Below, one piece after another: positions 19,310 to 27,644 of a stretch of DNA of 64,000 bases (within the stretch, counting starts at the first letter, position 1; every line of letters begins with the position of its first letter). This DNA comes from Sphaerisporangium rubeum (GTDB lineage Bacteria > Actinomycetota > Actinomycetes > Streptosporangiales > Streptosporangiaceae). Where the stretch lies: assembly GCF_014207705.1 (NCBI RefSeq), contig NZ_JACHIU010000001.1, forward strand, positions 3,588,501 to 3,652,500, read 5' to 3'. The notes below the pieces were generated by a model. It had not been told where the DNA came from and did no database searches. It worked only from the letters and a program-made list of their open reading frames with translations. The translations under genes and the position numbers were made by a program.

Positions 19310-19527
19310 GGATGTGACCCCTTCGGCTAGCCGGTCCTGCCAGAGATCGCCGTACCCACCCCGCCAGCCGGAAACCACCCGATTCATCCCACAACGGCGA
19401 CGGATACGCAGTGTGAGGACGGAGTAACGGGTTCTTGTTCCGAGGGAAACCGTCCGGCAACGGCGGCCACCTCGAATGGGGACACGCTGAAAGAACGGCG
19501 GCGCGGCTCACTCCCACGGAGGCTCGC

Positions 19528-19572
19528 ATGCCAGGCACCCCCATCGTCCGCACCCCCGGCCCTCCGAGATGA
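19528..19572 (+). CDS. 14-residue leader ORF upstream of the nit-type operon
   Basis: ATG at 19528 has a near-perfect ribosome binding site (ACGGAGG, 6 nt upstream) and encodes [14 protein letters not shown]. Its TGA overlaps the ATG of the flavoprotein gene (ATGA), and that gene has no good site of its own. This looks like a translational-coupling leader. A precursor-peptide role cannot be excluded but has no support. Confidence 0.5.
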
Positions 19573-20846
19573 GCGTCCGCCGCCACGCGGTCGTGGTGAT
19601 CGGCGCCGGCCAGGCGGGCCTGTCCATGAGCCACTGCCTCACCAGGCGCGGCGTCGACCACGTCGTGCTGGAACGGCACAAGGTCGGCCACGAGTGGCGT
19701 TCCCGCAGATGGGACACCTTCTGTCTGGTCACCCCCAACTGGCAGTGCCGCCTCCCCGGCTACTCCTACGGCGGCGCCGACCCCGACGGCTTCATGCGCC
19801 GTGACGAGATCGTCCGCTACCTGGAGGACTACGCCGCGTCGTTCGGCCCCCCGGTGCTGGAAGGCGTCACCGCGACCCGCCTCACCGCGTCCGGCACCGG
19901 TTTCGAGGTCGAGACCACCCACGGCACGTTCACCGCCGGCCAGGTCGTCGTGGCGACCGGGCCGTACCAGGAACCCGTGATCCCCCGCGTCGCCGAACGC
20001 GTCCCGCCGCACGTCACCCAGCTCCACTCCGGCGCCTACCGCGACCCCGGCGCGCTGCCGCCGGGGGAGGTGCTGGTCGTCGGCTCCGGCCAGTCCGGCT
20101 GCCAGATCGCCGAGGACCTGCACCTGGCGGGCCGGCGCGTCCACCTGGCCGTCGGCTCGGCCCCCCGCATCTCCCGGTTCTACCGCGGCAGGGACATCGT
20201 GGCCTGGCTCGACCTCATGGGCTACTACGAACGGCCCATCGAATCGTTCCCCGACCACGACGCGATCAGGGCCCGCGCCAACCACTACGTCACCGGCAGG
20301 GACGGCGGCAGGGACATCGACCTGCGCGCCTTCGCACGCGACGGCATGCGGCTGTACGGCAGGCTCACCGGCGTGCGGGACGGAAGATTCCTGTTCGGCG
20401 GCGACCTGGAACGCGACCTCGACCACGCCGACGCCGTGAACGACGGCGTCAAGGACTCCATCGACGCGTTCATCGCCGAACACGGCATCCAGGCCCGCAC
20501 CGAACCCCGGTACGTCCCGGTGTGGCGGCCGGAGAACCCCCCCGAGCACCTGGACGCCGGGCGGATCGCCGCCGTCGTCTGGTCCACCGGCTTCCGGCGC
20601 GACTACCGCTGGATCAGGGTCCCGGTGTTCGACGGCACCGGCTACCCCGTCCACCACCGCGGCGTCACCCGCGCACCCGGCCTGTACTTCCTCGGCCTGC
20701 CGTGGCTGCACACCTGGGGCTCGGGCCGTTTCTCCGGTGTCGCCGCCGACGCCGAGCACCTCGCCAGGCACATCGGCTCACCGCAGCCGGCCACCGCCGC
20801 GAACGGCCACTCCTACTTCGTCCACCCCGAACTGCTGGGGACGTGA
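19569..20846 (+). CDS. MSMEG_0569/NitH-family flavin-dependent oxidoreductase
   Basis: A 425-residue flavoprotein. FAD motif [20 protein letters not shown] at residues 8-27 and NADP motif [18 protein letters not shown] about 165 residues in, as in flavin monooxygenase-like enzymes. The [19 protein letters not shown] segment is typical of the MSMEG_0569 family, which occurs only with Nit1C-type clusters. First long gene of the operon, preceded by the 14-residue leader. Predicted oxygenase or dehydrogenase acting on an unknown intermediate of this pathway. Confidence 0.85.
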
Positions 20847-21719: not shown

Positions 21720-22232
21720 ATGCCGGAACTGACCGACCTGGAGAAGCAGAGCCTCACCGAGATCCCGCACCCGTCGCTGCCCGAGGGCTCCAGCCTGTAC
21801 GGCGGCACCAAGGTGTTCCCCGACTACCAGGCCGAGAACGGCGAGAGCTACTTCACGCTGGTGCACGGCATCGCGCACGAGTCGTCGGTCAGCTTCGTCG
21901 CGATCCTCCAGGCCACCCGCGCGCTGCGCAAAGGCTTCGAGTCGGCCATCTACTTCTACGGCCCCGGCTCCCTCAACTGCCTCGCCACCCGCGGTTTCCC
22001 CACCACCGGCAACTCCGCGTTCCCCGGCGAGCACAACATCAACAACTCGCTGAAGACGTTCATCGAGGAAGGCGGCAAGGTCTACTGCTGCCGCTTCGGC
22101 CTGTCGCTCCACGGCGCGCGCGAGGAGGACCTCATCGAAGGCGTCATCCCGACCCACCCGCTCGACGTCCAGGACGCCTTGATCCACTACGGCCGCAAAG
22201 GCGCGATCATCAACTCGACCTACATGTTCTAG
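21720..22232 (+). CDS. MSMEG_0572/Sll0783 (NitB) family protein
   Basis: A 170-residue protein starting at ATG 21720 behind AAGGAG. The sequence is strongly of the MSMEG_0572/Sll0783 'nitrogen starvation response' family: GESYFTLVHGIAHESSVSFVA, YFYGPGSLNC, GFPTTGNSAFPGE and CCRFGLSLHG. The fold is DsrE-like in character (small alpha/beta, conserved Cys), but the activity is unknown. In Synechocystis the homologue is nitrogen-starvation induced. Central marker gene of the cluster. Confidence 0.85.
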   Translation: MPELTDLEKQSLTEIPHPSLPEGSSLYGGTKVFPDYQAENGESYFTLVHGIAHESSVSFVAILQATRALRKGFESAIYFYGPGSLNCLATRGFPTTGNSAFPGEHNINNSLKTFIEEGGKVYCCRFGLSLHGAREEDLIEGVIPTHPLDVQDALIHYGRKGAIINSTYMF

Positions 22233-22242
22233 GAGGTCACGC

Positions 22243-23295
22243 GTGAGTGTCGGTACCAGGGTCGACGTGGCCATCAGGGGTGTCCGGGTGGACGCGCCGG
22301 TGCGCCGCTCCGGCGGCGCGGGCCCGAGCGACGACGGCCATCTGCTGTTCGGCGGCGCGCAAGCCGCGATCCCCATCGACCCGGCGAGCCCGTACGTCGT
22401 CCGCGACGGCAGCCTGTGGCTCGGCGACACCGACCTCGGCGTCCCCGTCACGCCGGTGGCCAGGCCCCGTTTCTACGACCTGGCCACCGCGGACGGAGTG
22501 CCGTACGAAAAGATCGCCAAACTGCACGGCTCCGGTGTGCTCGCCACCACCGTGGTGCAGACCTGCATCCGGTACGGCGAGGCCGACCGCTGCCGGTTCT
22601 GCACGGTGGAGGAGTCCCTGCGGGCCGGTGCGACCGTGGCCGCCAAGACCCCCGAGCAGCTCGCCGAGGTCGCCGAGGCCGCGGTCCGGCTCGACGGCGT
22701 ACGGCAGATGGTCATGACCACCGGCACCACCACCGGCCCCGACCGCGGCGCACGCGTCCTGTCCCGCGCCGTCCGCGCCGTCCTGCGCGCCGTCCCCGGC
22801 CTGCCGATCCAGGTCCAGTGCGAACCCCCCGCCGACCTGGCGTGGCTCACCGTCCTCCACGAGTCCGGCGCCACCGCCATCGGCATCCACGCCGAGTCCT
22901 TGGACGAGGACGTCCGCCGCGCCTGGACCCCCGGCAAGGCGACCGTTCCCCTGACCGTCTACGAGGAGGCCTGGGACGAAGCGGTCCGCGTCTTCGGCCG
23001 CAACCGCGTCTCCACCTACCTGCTGGTGGGCCTGGGTGAGGATCCCGACGAACTTGTCGCAGGCGCCGCACGCCTGATCGACCGCGGCGTCTACCCCTTC
23101 GTCGTCCCCTTCCGTCCGTTGAAAGGCTCCCTCGCCACCCGCGCCGGCGCCGTCCCCCCCGACCCCGCCACGATGCGGGACATCACCGTACGCGTCGCGG
23201 CCCTCCTCGGCGAAGCCGGCATGACCGGGGCCGACCAGCAGGCCGGTTGCGCCGCCTGCGGCGCCTGCTCGGCCCTACCTGCCGCAGGCGGCTGA
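22243..23295 (+). CDS. MSMEG_0568 (NitD) family radical SAM enzyme
   Basis: A 350-residue radical SAM protein. The cluster-binding cysteines are in TCIRYGEADRCRFC, a CX8CX2C spacing unlike the canonical CX3CX2C but characteristic of this family as I know it. A second Cys group (GCAACGAC, CX2CX2C) sits at the C-terminus and could bind another cluster. SAM-binding region TTGTTTGPDRG. It starts 10 nt after the NitB stop, with AGGAGGT upstream. Confidence 0.85.
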   Translation: MSVGTRVDVAIRGVRVDAPVRRSGGAGPSDDGHLLFGGAQAAIPIDPASPYVVRDGSLWLGDTDLGVPVTPVARPRFYDLATADGVPYEKIAKLHGSGVLATTVVQTCIRYGEADRCRFCTVEESLRAGATVAAKTPEQLAEVAEAAVRLDGVRQMVMTTGTTTGPDRGARVLSRAVRAVLRAVPGLPIQVQCEPPADLAWLTVLHESGATAIGIHAESLDEDVRRAWTPGKATVPLTVYEEAWDEAVRVFGRNRVSTYLLVGLGEDPDELVAGAARLIDRGVYPFVVPFRPLKGSLATRAGAVPPDPATMRDITVRVAALLGEAGMTGADQQAGCAACGACSALPAAGG

Positions 23296-23344: not shown

Positions 23345-24820
23345 ATGCACCCTGACGCCGACCTGTTCGCACTGCTCTCCGGCCTCCCCGACGCCTCCCG
23401 CGGACCCGTCTGCGACGTGCTCCTCGGCGGCGCGCCGCCGTACTTCATGATCGAGGAGGCGGACGCGGCCGGGACCGCCGCCTACCGGAGGCTGCGCCGC
23501 GAGGTGTTCGTCGACGAACAAGGCCTGTTCCCCGGCCACGACCTCGACGACAGGGACGACGACCCCCGCACCGTGGTCCTCGTCGCCAGGGACCGCACCG
23601 GCATCGTGATCGGCGGCGTGCGGCTCGGCCCGGCCGCCGACGGCCCCGACATCGGCTGGTGGCACGGCGGCCGGCTCATCGTCCGTCCCACCGACCGCGG
23701 CGGCGCCGGTGTCGGCCCCGCACTGATCCGCGCCGCCTGCGCACGCGCCGAAGCCGCAGGAGCACTCCGCTTCGAAGCCACCGTGCAGGCCCGCGCCGAA
23801 CGCCTCTTCGCGCGCCTCGGCTGGCGGACCATCCGTCCCGTCACCGTCGCCGGCCGTCCCCACGTCCTCATGCGTCACCCCGTCGGCCGCATCGCCGCAC
23901 TCGTCGCCGCCACCAAACACCCCCTCGGCCCGCTCCTCGCCGGTCTGGCCCCCGGCGGCCCCGGCTTCGTCGGCGACGACGCCGCCCCTGTCCCCGGCAG
24001 CGACCTCGTCGCCGCCTGCGACGCCATCCTCCCCGCCATGGTGGAACGCGACCCCGAATGGGCCGGCTGGTGCTCGGTCCTCGTCAACCTCAACGACCTG
24101 TCCGCCATGGGTGCCACCCCCGTAGGCATCCTCGACGCCGTCGCCGCCAAGGACACCACCGCCGCCACCCGCGTCCTGACCGGCCTCCGCCGCGCCGCCG
24201 AAGCGTACGACGTCCCCATCCTCGGCGGCCACACCCAACTAGGCGTCCCCGCGGCCCTCGCCGTGACCGCACTGGGCCGCACCGCCAACCCCGTCCCCGG
24301 CGGCGGCGGCCACCCCGGCCACCACGTCACCCTCACCGCCGACCTCTCCGGCGGTTGGCGTCCCGGCTACACCGGCCGCCAATGGGACTCCACGACAACC
24401 CGCACCACCCCAGAACTCCAGGCGATGCTGAACGCCGTGGCCGAAGCCCAGCCCGCCGCCGCCAAAGACGTCTCCATGGCCGGCGTCGCAGGCACTCTGG
24501 GAATGCTCGCCGAAGCCTCCGCCTGCGGCGCCGTCCTCGACGTCGCCAAGATCCCCCACCCCCCGAACACCACCATGGCCGACTGGCTCACCTGCTTCCC
24601 CGGCTTCGCCATGCTCACCACAGCCCCCCCATCCCACCCCGGCCTCCCGGAGACCCCGGCGGCAAGCGCGGTCTGCGGCGAACTGACAAGTACCCCTGGC
24701 ATCCACCTCCGCTGGCCCGACGGCGAACTGACCGAAGCCCTCCCCACCCCCGCCACCGGCCTCGGCCCGGCGGTTCAGCCGGTGAACGTTCGAGGTTCGA
24801 CGAGAAGGGCTGGACGATGA
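23345..24820 (+). CDS. GNAT-AIR synthase fusion (MSMEG_0567/Sll0786-Sll0787; NitE-NitF)
   Basis: A 491-residue two-domain protein. Residues about 30-180 are a GNAT acetyltransferase-like domain (YRRLRREVFVDEQGLF, then GGAGVGPALIRAACARAEAAG as the acetyl-CoA loop). Residues about 205-470 are an AIR synthase/PurM-like ATP-binding domain (GFVGDDAAPVPG, LNDLSAMGATPVGILDAVA, VPILGGHTQLG). In Synechocystis these are separate genes. The ATG at 23345 has GGAGG upstream. The stop overlaps the nitrilase start (ATGA). The AIRS part probably activates a carbonyl or amide with ATP (family knowledge). Confidence 0.85.
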   Translation: MHPDADLFALLSGLPDASRGPVCDVLLGGAPPYFMIEEADAAGTAAYRRLRREVFVDEQGLFPGHDLDDRDDDPRTVVLVARDRTGIVIGGVRLGPAADGPDIGWWHGGRLIVRPTDRGGAGVGPALIRAACARAEAAGALRFEATVQARAERLFARLGWRTIRPVTVAGRPHVLMRHPVGRIAALVAATKHPLGPLLAGLAPGGPGFVGDDAAPVPGSDLVAACDAILPAMVERDPEWAGWCSVLVNLNDLSAMGATPVGILDAVAAKDTTAATRVLTGLRRAAEAYDVPILGGHTQLGVPAALAVTALGRTANPVPGGGGHPGHHVTLTADLSGGWRPGYTGRQWDSTTTRTTPELQAMLNAVAEAQPAAAKDVSMAGVAGTLGMLAEASACGAVLDVAKIPHPPNTTMADWLTCFPGFAMLTTAPPSHPGLPETPAASAVCGELTSTPGIHLRWPDGELTEALPTPATGLGPAVQPVNVRGSTRRAGR

Positions 24821-25692
24821 TGATTCGCATGGCCGCTGTGGCGGCGCCGTTCGACCGGGACGTCGAGAGGTGTTTCGCACGCATAGAACAACTGGTGGAG
24901 GCCGCAAGGGCCGACGGGGTACGACTGCTGGCGCTGCCGGAGGCATGCATCGGCGGCTACCTGCACAGCATGGACGGCGACCCTTCCGACGTACCACCGG
25001 CGCTCGACCCGGACGGGCCGGAGATACGGCGGCTCGCGGCGATCGCGAAAGACATGGTGGTGTGCGCGGGGTTCTGCGAGGCGGCAGGCGACCGGCGGTA
25101 CAACAGCGTGGTCTGCGTGACCGGCGACGGGACACTCGGCCTGCACAGAAAAGTGCACCAACCCCTCAGTGAGGACGCGCTGTTCGCGGCCGGTGACGGC
25201 TTCGCGGCGTTCGACACGCCGGTCGGCAGGCTCGGCATGATGATCTGCTACGACAAGGCGTTCCCCGAGTCGGCACGCACCCTGGCCCTGGACGGCGCCG
25301 AGATAGTGGTCTGTTCCTCGGCGTGGCCCGCGAGCCGCACCGACCCGGCCCCCGACCTGGCCGACGACCGCTGGACCCGGCGTTTCGACCTGTTCGACCA
25401 GACCCGGGCCCTGGAGAACCAGGTCGTCTGGCTCTCGGCCAACCAGTCCGGCACCTTCGGCACCCTCCGCTTCGTCGGCAGCGCCAAGATCGTCGGCCCA
25501 GGCGGCGAGATCCTGTCCCGTACCGGGGTGACCCAAGGCATGGCGACAGCCGAACTGGACGTGCCGCGAACCCTCGCCACGGCCCGCCGCTCCATGGGCC
25601 ACCTACGCGACCGCCGTCCCTCTGCCTACCACTCCACCGACATATCCGTGATGACTGCCTTCCCGGCGGTGACCCCGGCACCAGGAGCCTGA
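24817..25692 (+). CDS. nitC: Nit1C-type nitrilase (NitC), catalytically complete
   Basis: A 291-residue carbon-nitrogen hydrolase. The triad is intact: Glu42 (ALPEACIGGY), Lys112 (LHRKVHQP) and Cys144 (MMICYDKAFPE). This is the nitrilase-1 branch found in Nit1C clusters, linked in Pseudomonas to growth on cyanide. Translation is coupled to the upstream gene by ATGA. It is followed after 4 nt by a paralogue that lacks the catalytic residues. Substrate here unproven. Confidence 0.88.
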   Translation: MMIRMAAVAAPFDRDVERCFARIEQLVEAARADGVRLLALPEACIGGYLHSMDGDPSDVPPALDPDGPEIRRLAAIAKDMVVCAGFCEAAGDRRYNSVVCVTGDGTLGLHRKVHQPLSEDALFAAGDGFAAFDTPVGRLGMMICYDKAFPESARTLALDGAEIVVCSSAWPASRTDPAPDLADDRWTRRFDLFDQTRALENQVVWLSANQSGTFGTLRFVGSAKIVGPGGEILSRTGVTQGMATAELDVPRTLATARRSMGHLRDRRPSAYHSTDISVMTAFPAVTPAPGA

Positions 25693-25696
25693 CCCG

Positions 25697-26515
25697 GTGG
25701 TCCGCATAGCGGCGGCGTCCGCGCACTTCGGCCGGGACCTGGAGTTCGACCTTCAAAGAATCGCGAAACTCATCGCCGACGCGCGAGCCGAAGGCGCCGC
25801 ACTCCTCGTCCTCCCCGACGCCACCCTCGGCGGCTACCTGGCCGACCTCCGCCACCCCGACCCCGACGCGCTCCCCCCGGCCCTCGACCCCGCCGACCCG
25901 ATCTTCAAACGGCTGGCAGGCCTGGCAGGAGAAATGGTCGTCTGCGCCGGCTACTGCGAAGCCGCAGGCCAGGACCGCTACAACGCCGCGGTCTGCCTCA
26001 CCGGCGACGGCGTACTCGGCCGCCACCGCAAGGTCCACCTCCCCGCAGGAGAGATCACCGCCTACGCGCCAGGCGACCGCTTCGACGCCTTCGACACCCC
26101 TGTCGGCCGTGTCGGCATGCTCATCGACTACGACAAGACCTTCCCCGAGTCGGCACGCTCCCTGGCCCTCGACGGCGCCGAGATCCTCGCGTGCCTGTCG
26201 GCGTGGCCCACCAGCATCACCAACCGCGCACCCCGCATGACCCAGGACCGCCAGTCCCGCCTGTTCGACCTGTACGACCAGGCCCGCGCCGCCGAGAACC
26301 AGGTCGTCCTCGCCTCCTCCAACCAGACCGGCGCCATGGGAGGCATGCGTTTCCTCGGCCAGGCCAAGGTCGTCGGCCCCGGCGGCGAGATCCTCGCACG
26401 TACCTGGTCCAAAGCGGGCCTGGCGGTCGCCGAACTGGACGTCAAGGAGGAGATCGCCAGAGCCCGCCGCGTCCTCGACCACCTGAGCGAACTACGACCG
26501 GGGAGCTACCGGTGA
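25697..26515 (+). CDS. Nitrilase-fold pseudoenzyme (NitC paralogue)
   Basis: A 272-residue close paralogue of the preceding nitrilase and collinear with it, but the catalytic Glu is Asp41 (VLPDATLGGY) and the catalytic Cys is Asp144 (MLIDYDKTFPE, codon GAC). Lys112 is kept (RHRKVHLP). Without the Cys no thioester can form, so it should be inactive. The frame is intact and codon use is normal, so it is not a decaying pseudogene. A structural or regulatory subunit of the nitrilase oligomer is the likely role (inference). The GTG start is at 25697. Confidence 0.85.
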   Translation: MVRIAAASAHFGRDLEFDLQRIAKLIADARAEGAALLVLPDATLGGYLADLRHPDPDALPPALDPADPIFKRLAGLAGEMVVCAGYCEAAGQDRYNAAVCLTGDGVLGRHRKVHLPAGEITAYAPGDRFDAFDTPVGRVGMLIDYDKTFPESARSLALDGAEILACLSAWPTSITNRAPRMTQDRQSRLFDLYDQARAAENQVVLASSNQTGAMGGMRFLGQAKVVGPGGEILARTWSKAGLAVAELDVKEEIARARRVLDHLSELRPGSYR

Positions 26516-26577
26516 GGATCGCGCCGCTGACGTACTCCACCAACCCGAGCGAGCCGCGTCCAGGGGGCCACCGGTGA
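26512..26577 (+). CDS. Mini-ORF from duplicated start of the glycosyltransferase gene
   Basis: GTG at 26512 overlaps the stop of the pseudo-nitrilase (GTGA) and opens a 21-codon frame beginning VRIAPLTYST, nearly the same as the start of the real gene (MRIALLTYST). The copies are 62 bp apart. The mini-ORF TGA overlaps the real GTG at 26574. Confidence 0.45.
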   Translation: MRIAPLTYSTNPSEPRPGGHR

Positions 26578-27644
26578 GGATCGCGCTGCTGACGTACTCG
26601 ACCAAGCCGCGCGGCGGCGTCGTGCACACCCTCAGCCTCGCCGAGGCCCTGGCCGCCGCCGGACAGGACGTGACGGTCTGGACGCTGGCCCGCGGCGGCG
26701 ACGGCGGCTTCTTCCGCGCCGTCGACCCGGCCGTACGGCAGGTCATCGTGCCGTTCCGCGACATCCCCGGCGAAAGCGTCGGCGACCGCGTGCTGCGCTC
26801 CATCGCCGCCATGCGCGCCGCGTTCCGTCCCGACGGCTACGACGTCGTGCACGCGCAGGACTGCATCACCGCCAACGCCGCCGACGACTGCGTGCGCACC
26901 GTCCACCACATCGACCACTTCACCACCCCCGAACTGGTCGCCTGCCACGAACGCGCCATCTCCCGGCCGCACACCCACATCTGCGTCTCCACCGCCGTGG
27001 CCCGTGAACTGGCCGCCGGCTGGGACATCGCCGCCACCGTCATCCCCAACGGCGTCGAGGCCGAGCGCTTCGCCGAAGCGGCCCGCCACCCCGACCCCCG
27101 CTGGCGTGCGCGCTTCGGCCGGTACGTCCTCACCGTCGGCGGCATCGAACCCCGCAAAGGCTCCATGGACCTCCTGGAGGCCTACGCGCTGCTCACCGGT
27201 GCCGACCCTGACCTGCGCCTCGTCATCGCCGGCGGCGAGACCCTGTTCGACTACCGCGACTACCGCGCCACCTGGGACGACCGCGCCGCCGCACTCGGCC
27301 TCGACCCCGTCGTCCTCGGCCGCGTCGGCCACGACGACCTCCCCGGCCTCGTCGCCTCCGCCGCCGTCTTCGCCTTCCCGTCCCTCAAGGAAGGCTTCGG
27401 CCTCGCCGCCATGGAGGCCCTGGCGGCAGGCGTCCCCCTGGTCACCCGCGACCTCGCCGTCTTCCGTGAGGTCTTCACCCCCGCCGCGCACTTCGCCACG
27501 ACCCCCCGCGACTTCGCCGACGCCATGCACACGGCCATGACCACCCCCGACCCACCCCGCCGTACCGCCGGCCACGACCTGGCGACCCGCCACACCTGGC
27601 GAGCCGCCGCCGAACGTCACATCACGCTGTACGAGTCCCTGTGA
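26574..27644 (+). CDS. MSMEG_0565-family GT4 glycosyltransferase
   Basis: A 356-residue GT-B glycosyltransferase: MRIALLTYSTKPRGGVVH at the N-terminus, CVSTAVARELAAGW, VIPNGVEAERF, VGGIEPRKGS, and the nucleotide-sugar-binding EGFGLAAMEALAAGVP near residue 280. It is the last gene of the operon and its stop abuts the convergent gene at 27645. Family members are found with MSMEG_0566-0572 homologues, which suggests the pathway product is glycosylated. Acceptor unknown. Confidence 0.85.
   Translation: MRIALLTYSTKPRGGVVHTLSLAEALAAAGQDVTVWTLARGGDGGFFRAVDPAVRQVIVPFRDIPGESVGDRVLRSIAAMRAAFRPDGYDVVHAQDCITANAADDCVRTVHHIDHFTTPELVACHERAISRPHTHICVSTAVARELAAGWDIAATVIPNGVEAERFAEAARHPDPRWRARFGRYVLTVGGIEPRKGSMDLLEAYALLTGADPDLRLVIAGGETLFDYRDYRATWDDRAAALGLDPVVLGRVGHDDLPGLVASAAVFAFPSLKEGFGLAAMEALAAGVPLVTRDLAVFREVFTPAAHFATTPRDFADAMHTAMTTPDPPRRTAGHDLATRHTWRAAAERHITLYESL

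Follow-up and report, generated by a model that had tools for sequence, protein, structure and literature searches.

Nit1C gene clusters and the gpr operon of Mycobacterium smegmatis are the closest described counterparts of the locus presented here. The 2005 description stated that experimental evidence for a known transformation existed for none of the Nit1C genes (PMC1199592), and NitC/nit1C of Pseudomonas has been tied to cyanide assimilation (PMC11049912). The gpr operon, MSMEG_0565-0572, is described as induced by GlnR, and cells without it are reported to be more sensitive to peroxide when starved of nitrogen (PMC6039565). Of its products, MSMEG_0571 has been annotated as a carbon-nitrogen hydrolase (PMC4222082), whereas MSMEG_0566 is given as an aliphatic amidase that might contribute to nitrogen assimilation (PMC4617892, PMC4222082). 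The accessible text of PMC6039565 also calls MSMEG_0566 a putative aliphatic amidase, and a lost cysteine is not mentioned there. In plants two paralogous nitrilase-fold chains, NIT4A and NIT4B, form heteromers in nitrile metabolism (PMC3537687, PMC5154151). According to a review, the NIT4 activity of Poaceae derives entirely from such heteromers (PMC3537687).

A Nit1C-like operon with two carbon-nitrogen hydrolase genes

The window, a stretch of 64,000 nucleotides from Sphaerisporangium rubeum (NZ_JACHIU010000001.1, positions 3,588,501 to 3,652,500), carries an operon of eight genes on the plus strand. It begins with an MSMEG_0569-family flavin oxidoreductase, here called the flavoprotein (19569..20846; TIGR04046, 639.6 bits against a cut-off of 498.35), followed by an amidohydrolase (Amidohydro_2, Pfam PF04909; 20849..21664), an MSMEG_0572/Sll0783 nitrogen-starvation response protein (21720..22232; TIGR04044 above cut-off), an MSMEG_0568-family radical SAM protein (22243..23295; TIGR04043 above cut-off) and an MSMEG_0567-type fusion of a GNAT domain and an AIR-synthase-like domain (23345..24820; TIGR04045 and TIGR04050 above cut-offs). 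Two carbon-nitrogen hydrolase genes, here called NITA and NITD, come next, and an MSMEG_0565-family glycosyltransferase (26574..27644; TIGR04047 above cut-off) closes the operon.

The radical SAM, GNAT, AIR-like, MSMEG_0572-type and flavoprotein genes are shared with the Nit1C cluster as described in PMC1199592 and PMC11049912. Unlike Nit1C, the window's operon has a hydrolase from outside the TIGR04048 family, adds a second, triad-less hydrolase, an amidohydrolase and a glycosyltransferase (the last reported for betaproteobacteria in PMC1199592), and has no MSMEG_0570-family gene, which was searched for in the genome and not found. TIGR04042, which we equate by size and place with Nit1C ORF6 of about 100 aa, gave no match in the genome at E 0.001. 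The amidohydrolase, which has no NCBIfam match, is well conserved within the operon, with 77-89% identity in those of the relatives' loci named below where it was found, but is absent from the 2005 list of seven Nit1C genes (PMC1199592).

NITA had been introduced in the preliminary description as an active Nit1C nitrilase. This name is not supported, as TIGR04048 (Nit6803/Nit1C nitrilase) scores NITA at 36.9 bits and NITD at 25.0 bits against a cut-off of 502.6, and has no match anywhere in the genome at E 1e-20. The operon is Nit1C-like, and a different carbon-nitrogen hydrolase occupies the nitrilase slot. Because NITA lies outside the TIGR04048 family, the cyanide substrate cannot be transferred to it.

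The gpr operon and the window's operon share gene families by name, including two carbon-nitrogen hydrolases (MSMEG_0571 and MSMEG_0566). The gpr order was matched through synteny with four clusters of one family (f4: G196, G279, G459 and G417), which read MSMEG_0572-type gene, NITA, flavoprotein, radical SAM, 0567, NITD, glycosyltransferase. Of the five f4 clusters, these four have the radical SAM gene between NITA and NITD, which are adjacent in the window. By this synteny MSMEG_0566 would occupy the slot of NITD.

The preliminary description knew of no Nit1C cluster described as having such a pair. This stands for the pairing of an Asp-for-Cys nitrilase with an intact one, since a literature search, covering mostly papers outside subscription, gave no bacterial case among the matches listed. 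It does not stand for the presence of two carbon-nitrogen hydrolase genes, which the gpr operon has in a seemingly matching order (PMC6039565).

Upstream of the operon lies a weak candidate regulatory element (19413..19461, plus strand), proposed from its box score and its spacing, which resembles that of a consensus we take to be GlnR's; some relatives' upstream stretches look alike by eye. The best box score in the window (19413-19450) was equalled in 2 of 200 simple shuffles. Matches in the window as a whole are at chance (36 found, 38.5 expected), and the best scores upstream of 11 relatives were equalled by 14 to 143 of 200 same-strand shuffles. A GlnR box was rejected on these grounds.

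A fixed aspartate at the nucleophile position of NITD

NITA and NITD are two open frames 4 nt apart, as the preliminary description had it: the NITA stop ends at 25692 and the GTG start of NITD is at 25697. NITA (24817..25692, plus strand, 291 aa) has an intact triad, with E42 in LPEACIGGYL, K112 in HRKVH and C144 in MMICYDKAFPESAR, and is predicted from it to be catalytically active. NITD (25697..26515, plus strand, 272 aa) is a nitrilase-superfamily pseudoenzyme with D41, K112, E119 and D144. Only K112 of its triad remains, in agreement with the earlier account, and it remains in relatives too. The general-base Glu is replaced by D41 in LPDATLGGYL (codon 41, 25817..25819, plus strand) and the nucleophile Cys by D144 in MLIDYDKTFPESAR (codon 144, GAC, 26126..26128, plus strand). 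The two proteins are 59% identical, whereas no other protein of the genome exceeds 32% identity to NITD among its best relatives, which makes the pair look like duplicates from a single subfamily.

Both proteins match Pfam CN_hydrolase (PF00795; NITA 141.9 bits, NITD 124.7 bits, cut-off 23.2), and they have the fold in common and a similar length. Structure comparison (VIA-align) assigned the nitrilase fold to NITD with confidence, which makes it a member of the superfamily at fold level. Three viral structures matched at E values of 0.001 or below, and the top one is named a CN hydrolase of a Prochlorococcus phage. Unlike competent nitrilases and amidases, e.g. the PH0642 amidase of Pyrococcus horikoshii (1j31, 6ypa), NITD has neither the Cys nucleophile nor the conserved Glu base, and carries a fixed Asp at the Cys position. 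The triad Lys and a second Glu, on the other hand, are present as K112 and E119. In alignment E119 falls on the second Glu of 7ovg, and we take it to be the second Glu of the superfamily in general.

A scan of species genomes gave 416 candidate relatives, of which the best 80 form the named set. These come from six named Actinomycetes families, with one relative unassigned, and mostly from Streptomycetaceae (38), Streptosporangiaceae (23) and Pseudonocardiaceae (13). Orthologous pairs, which the preliminary description had left to be looked for, are found in all of them: each of these best 80 of 416 loci has a NITA-type gene upstream of NITD and a glycosyltransferase downstream. Residue 144 of NITD is Asp in 80/80, and at position 41 there are 79 Asp and a single His, whereas NITA has the Cys in 80/80 and the complete triad in 79, the exception being L064 with NITA in pieces. 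The codon at NITD position 144 is GAC in 81/81 (the window and the 80 named loci).

The main alignment comprises 113 NITD and 127 NITA rows, combining the window with the named loci, a plasmid and class-wide loci; two genomes are included twice. In it D144, K112 and E119 are each present in 113/113 NITD rows, position 41 is Asp in 104, Gly in seven, His in one and Gln in one, and the nucleophile Cys of NITA is found in 127/127 rows. No Cys occurs at NITD positions 140-150 in any of the 113 rows, which rules out a shifted catalytic residue that would rescue NITD; nor does the Glu position hold anything other than Asp, Gly, His or Gln. D144 is also present throughout the class-wide set, in 31/31 NITD rows (two genomes here are also among the named), in 27/27 NITD loci of a family sample overlapping the named loci, and on a Rhodococcus plasmid copy. 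Its recurrence in all these sets indicates that it is due to neither chance nor assembly error. Further residues are near-invariant in NITD and differ from the NITA majority, i.e. T148, R177, Q186, L189, Y193, A199, Q222 and K239; Q186 and A199 are also present in Cys-bearing relatives from outside the class.

Distribution, origin and selection

In a sample of 394 genomes of the class, the radical SAM family was found in 54 and NITA or NITD in 49; six of the 54 had neither at the thresholds used. Both NITA and NITD were present in 32 genomes, i.e. in all but one of the 33 NITD genomes, while 16 of the 48 NITA clusters were without NITD. G176 is the sole genome of this sample in which NITD is found and NITA is not. 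This orphan NITD (L191:5342-6205) has Asp at both sites, its genome also lacks the cluster radical SAM gene and the TIGR04046 flavoprotein, and by eye it adjoins an aldose epimerase-like gene.

Fourteen of the 16 NITD-less genomes belong to two genera of one family. The remaining two are G362 and G185, and NITD is present in all six sampled genomes from the genus of G185 other than G185 itself. None of the 14 has a TIGR04046 flavoprotein over the family cut-off, five having weaker relatives elsewhere. In two NITA-only loci (L142:6015-8078 and L143:7018-8616) a different FAD protein (Pfam FAD_binding_3) is located between NITA and the glycosyltransferase, and by eye an FAD protein of apparently the same kind is present in G170 (L163), which keeps NITD. 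The tie between NITD and the flavoprotein is weak because there are exceptions on both sides: G170 keeps NITD but gave no TIGR04046 match, and the flavoprotein is present in G185 and G362, which lack NITD.

In the window's family, of which 27 of 150 sampled genomes gave matches, NITA and NITD are neighbours, whereas the flavoprotein gene lies between them in many clusters of other families. One of the 27 (G032, L228:4081-7160) has no NITA, and its NITD directly abuts pieces of the amidohydrolase and MSMEG_0572-type genes strung end to end; this mosaic copy may reflect decay or an assembly artefact. A sample of 246 genomes of the phylum gave three genomes outside the class with relatives, and their five copies all keep the Cys. 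Two of the five lie beside other cluster genes and three are without any in the stretch fetched, which for one of these three, L214, begins at a contig end. This Cys-bearing copy (L214:226-1101) adjoins, by eye, an asparagine synthetase-like gene, and the stretch also holds an ammonium-transporter-like gene.

NITD forms one clade in both trees that were calculated (support 100 and 100/99). The outgroup rows of the first tree are on very long branches, so that the family could not be rooted, and the second was rooted, by assumption, on three Cys-bearing relatives from outside the class. In the second tree NITA groups with two copies that come from outside the class but lie in clusters (98/90), NITD is placed next to this group, and a branch (97/89) sets the NITA rows apart from the rest. 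Under the assumed root, the simplest account would be a single duplication and a single loss of the Cys, at an early point in the class or even earlier, after which some lineages lost NITD.

The earlier suggestion that selection holds the second copy is borne out. Rates were estimated by NG86 on 80 rows (the window and 79 named loci, L064 being dropped). The median dN/dS, taken over the 2907 pairs whose pS is below 0.5, is 0.19 for NITD, far below 1, and 0.24 for NITA, and dN is lower for NITD in 3092 of 3160 pairs, although the pairs are not independent and the set was picked by similarity to NITD, thus favouring it. Nor is the frame broken in relatives, as no internal stop occurs in NITD in any of the best 80 of 416. 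Among 30 clusters (25 from the class sample and five named, after four of 34 candidates with missing genes were dropped), mean identity is 66.0% for NITD and 60.8% for NITA, compared with 59.0% for the flavoprotein, 62.6% for the 0567 fusion, 64.7% for the glycosyltransferase, 69.4% for the radical SAM protein and 81.3% for MSMEG_0572. Column entropy in 37 clusters is lower in NITD than in NITA both near the catalytic positions (0.52 vs 0.64 bits) and elsewhere (0.93 vs 1.10 bits). It is lower in NITD at 142 columns and in NITA at 88 (Wilcoxon p 0.0004, the columns not being independent). As the entropy of the NITD motifs is no higher than that of NITA's, the active site has not been released from selection. 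The pseudoenzyme NITD is real, occurs widely and is under strong selection in its Nit1C-like operon.

The possible role of NITD

NITD evolves more slowly than the intact NITA, so its function is probably something other than the hydrolysis of nitriles or amides. At close to even chances, we propose that it is an ancient functional pseudonitrilase, whose kept Asp-Lys-Glu pocket binds or non-hydrolytically changes an intermediate of the pathway. The cluster's carbon-nitrogen hydrolase was duplicated, and one copy lost its Cys nucleophile, apparently once, and fixed an Asp. Its Glu base was free to vary, with Lys112, Glu119 and the surrounding motifs remaining under strong selection. Lacking the Cys, NITD should hardly be able to hydrolyse nitriles or amides by the established Cys mechanism of the superfamily. 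The Asp144-Lys112-Glu119 pocket, defined here by sequence motifs, would still bind an intermediate of the operon's pathway, and hold, channel or sense it; alternatively, it might perform acid-base chemistry on the intermediate without a covalent thioimidate or thioester step.

Position 144 is always Asp and not the mix of residues expected from drift, which supports a maintained site. According to their PDB entry titles, superfamily proteins with the Cys mutated to Ala retain amide ligands (6ypa, 4izs, 5ny7). The orphan NITD also speaks for this reading, as a case from one genome only, and so does covariation, the distances of NITD following those of the flavoprotein (partial r 0.36) more closely than those of NITA (0.17), although this gap is small and may be due to gene neighbourhood. 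As a counterpoint, the invariant Asp144 could form a buried ion pair with Lys112 and stabilise a purely structural subunit. Hetero-oligomers with NITA are possible since the fold is kept together with helix motifs that we take to be the dimer face of the superfamily, and the pocket reading does not require them.

The most serious rival is that NITD is a pseudo-subunit of NITA, forming hetero-oligomers that set its activity, specificity, filament length or stability, with a pocket that is only structural. The NITA stop and NITD start overlap by 4 nt in 47 of the 80 named loci, with a spacing of -20 to 25 nt in 74, and these overlaps, the near-complete co-occurrence with NITA in the class sample (32/33) and the heteromeric NIT4 of Poaceae (PMC3537687) keep a structural partner in consideration. 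NIT4A and NIT4B are plant enzymes that work as a complex, whereas NITA and NITD are known here from their genes. The likeness of both proteins in fold and length fits as well, and so does helix 188-202 of NITD, the most conserved of six segments measured (entropy 0.21). An obligate pair, however, is argued against by the 16 NITA clusters without NITD, including that of G185, by the orphan NITD, by the clusters with the flavoprotein gene between the two and by covariation. The partial correlation of NITD distances with those of NITA is just 0.17, i.e. not preferential. Furthermore, a structural role alone does not predict an invariant Asp at the nucleophile position. We therefore consider a role of NITD as cap or regulator of NITA possible, at less than even probability, and slightly favour the repurposed pocket.

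The same correlations are higher for the flavoprotein (0.36), the glycosyltransferase (0.25) and the 0567 fusion (0.21), and could mean that NITD serves mainly as a scaffold or pathway sensor together with one of these proteins, with no part played by a small-molecule pocket. The 14 NITD-less genomes without the flavoprotein would agree. Nevertheless this seems improbable, as all the correlations, including those with the radical SAM protein (0.04) and MSMEG_0572 (-0.08), are weak and confounded by adjacency, the 14 genomes represent only two genera of one family, and G170, G185 and G362 break the pattern. About as improbable is that NITD is still a hydrolase, or an acyl- or amidine-transfer enzyme, with Asp144 as nucleophile. 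Asp144, Lys112 and Glu119 would provide an invariant set of polar catalytic groups, but the general-base position is Gly in seven of 113 rows and Gln or His in two, and we know of no member of the superfamily using Asp as nucleophile in this way. A decaying duplicate, as the broken triad and the mosaic or eroded cluster copy in G032 could suggest, is hardly credible. The low dN/dS, the stop-free frames and the invariant Asp refute a pseudogene, and NITD is one clade that changes more slowly than NITA.

A bolder form of the pocket reading, which we regard as unlikely but worth stating, is that NITD represents a new type of nitrilase-fold enzyme. Its Asp/Lys/Glu site would form or rearrange an intermediate such as a nitrile, an amide or a cyanohydrin-like compound, with no covalent adduct to Cys, and hand the product on to NITA. 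This would be a step of its own in a nitrogen-starvation pathway that occurs across many Actinomycetes. On the Rhodococcus plasmid both NITA and NITD are annotated as 'carbon-nitrogen hydrolase family protein', and MSMEG_0566, in the NITD slot by gene order, is listed as an aliphatic amidase. Should the orthologues of NITD turn out not to hydrolyse, annotations of this kind would have to be revised together with the functions deduced from them. A dead member that is kept more strictly than the live one provides a clear handle on the pathway.
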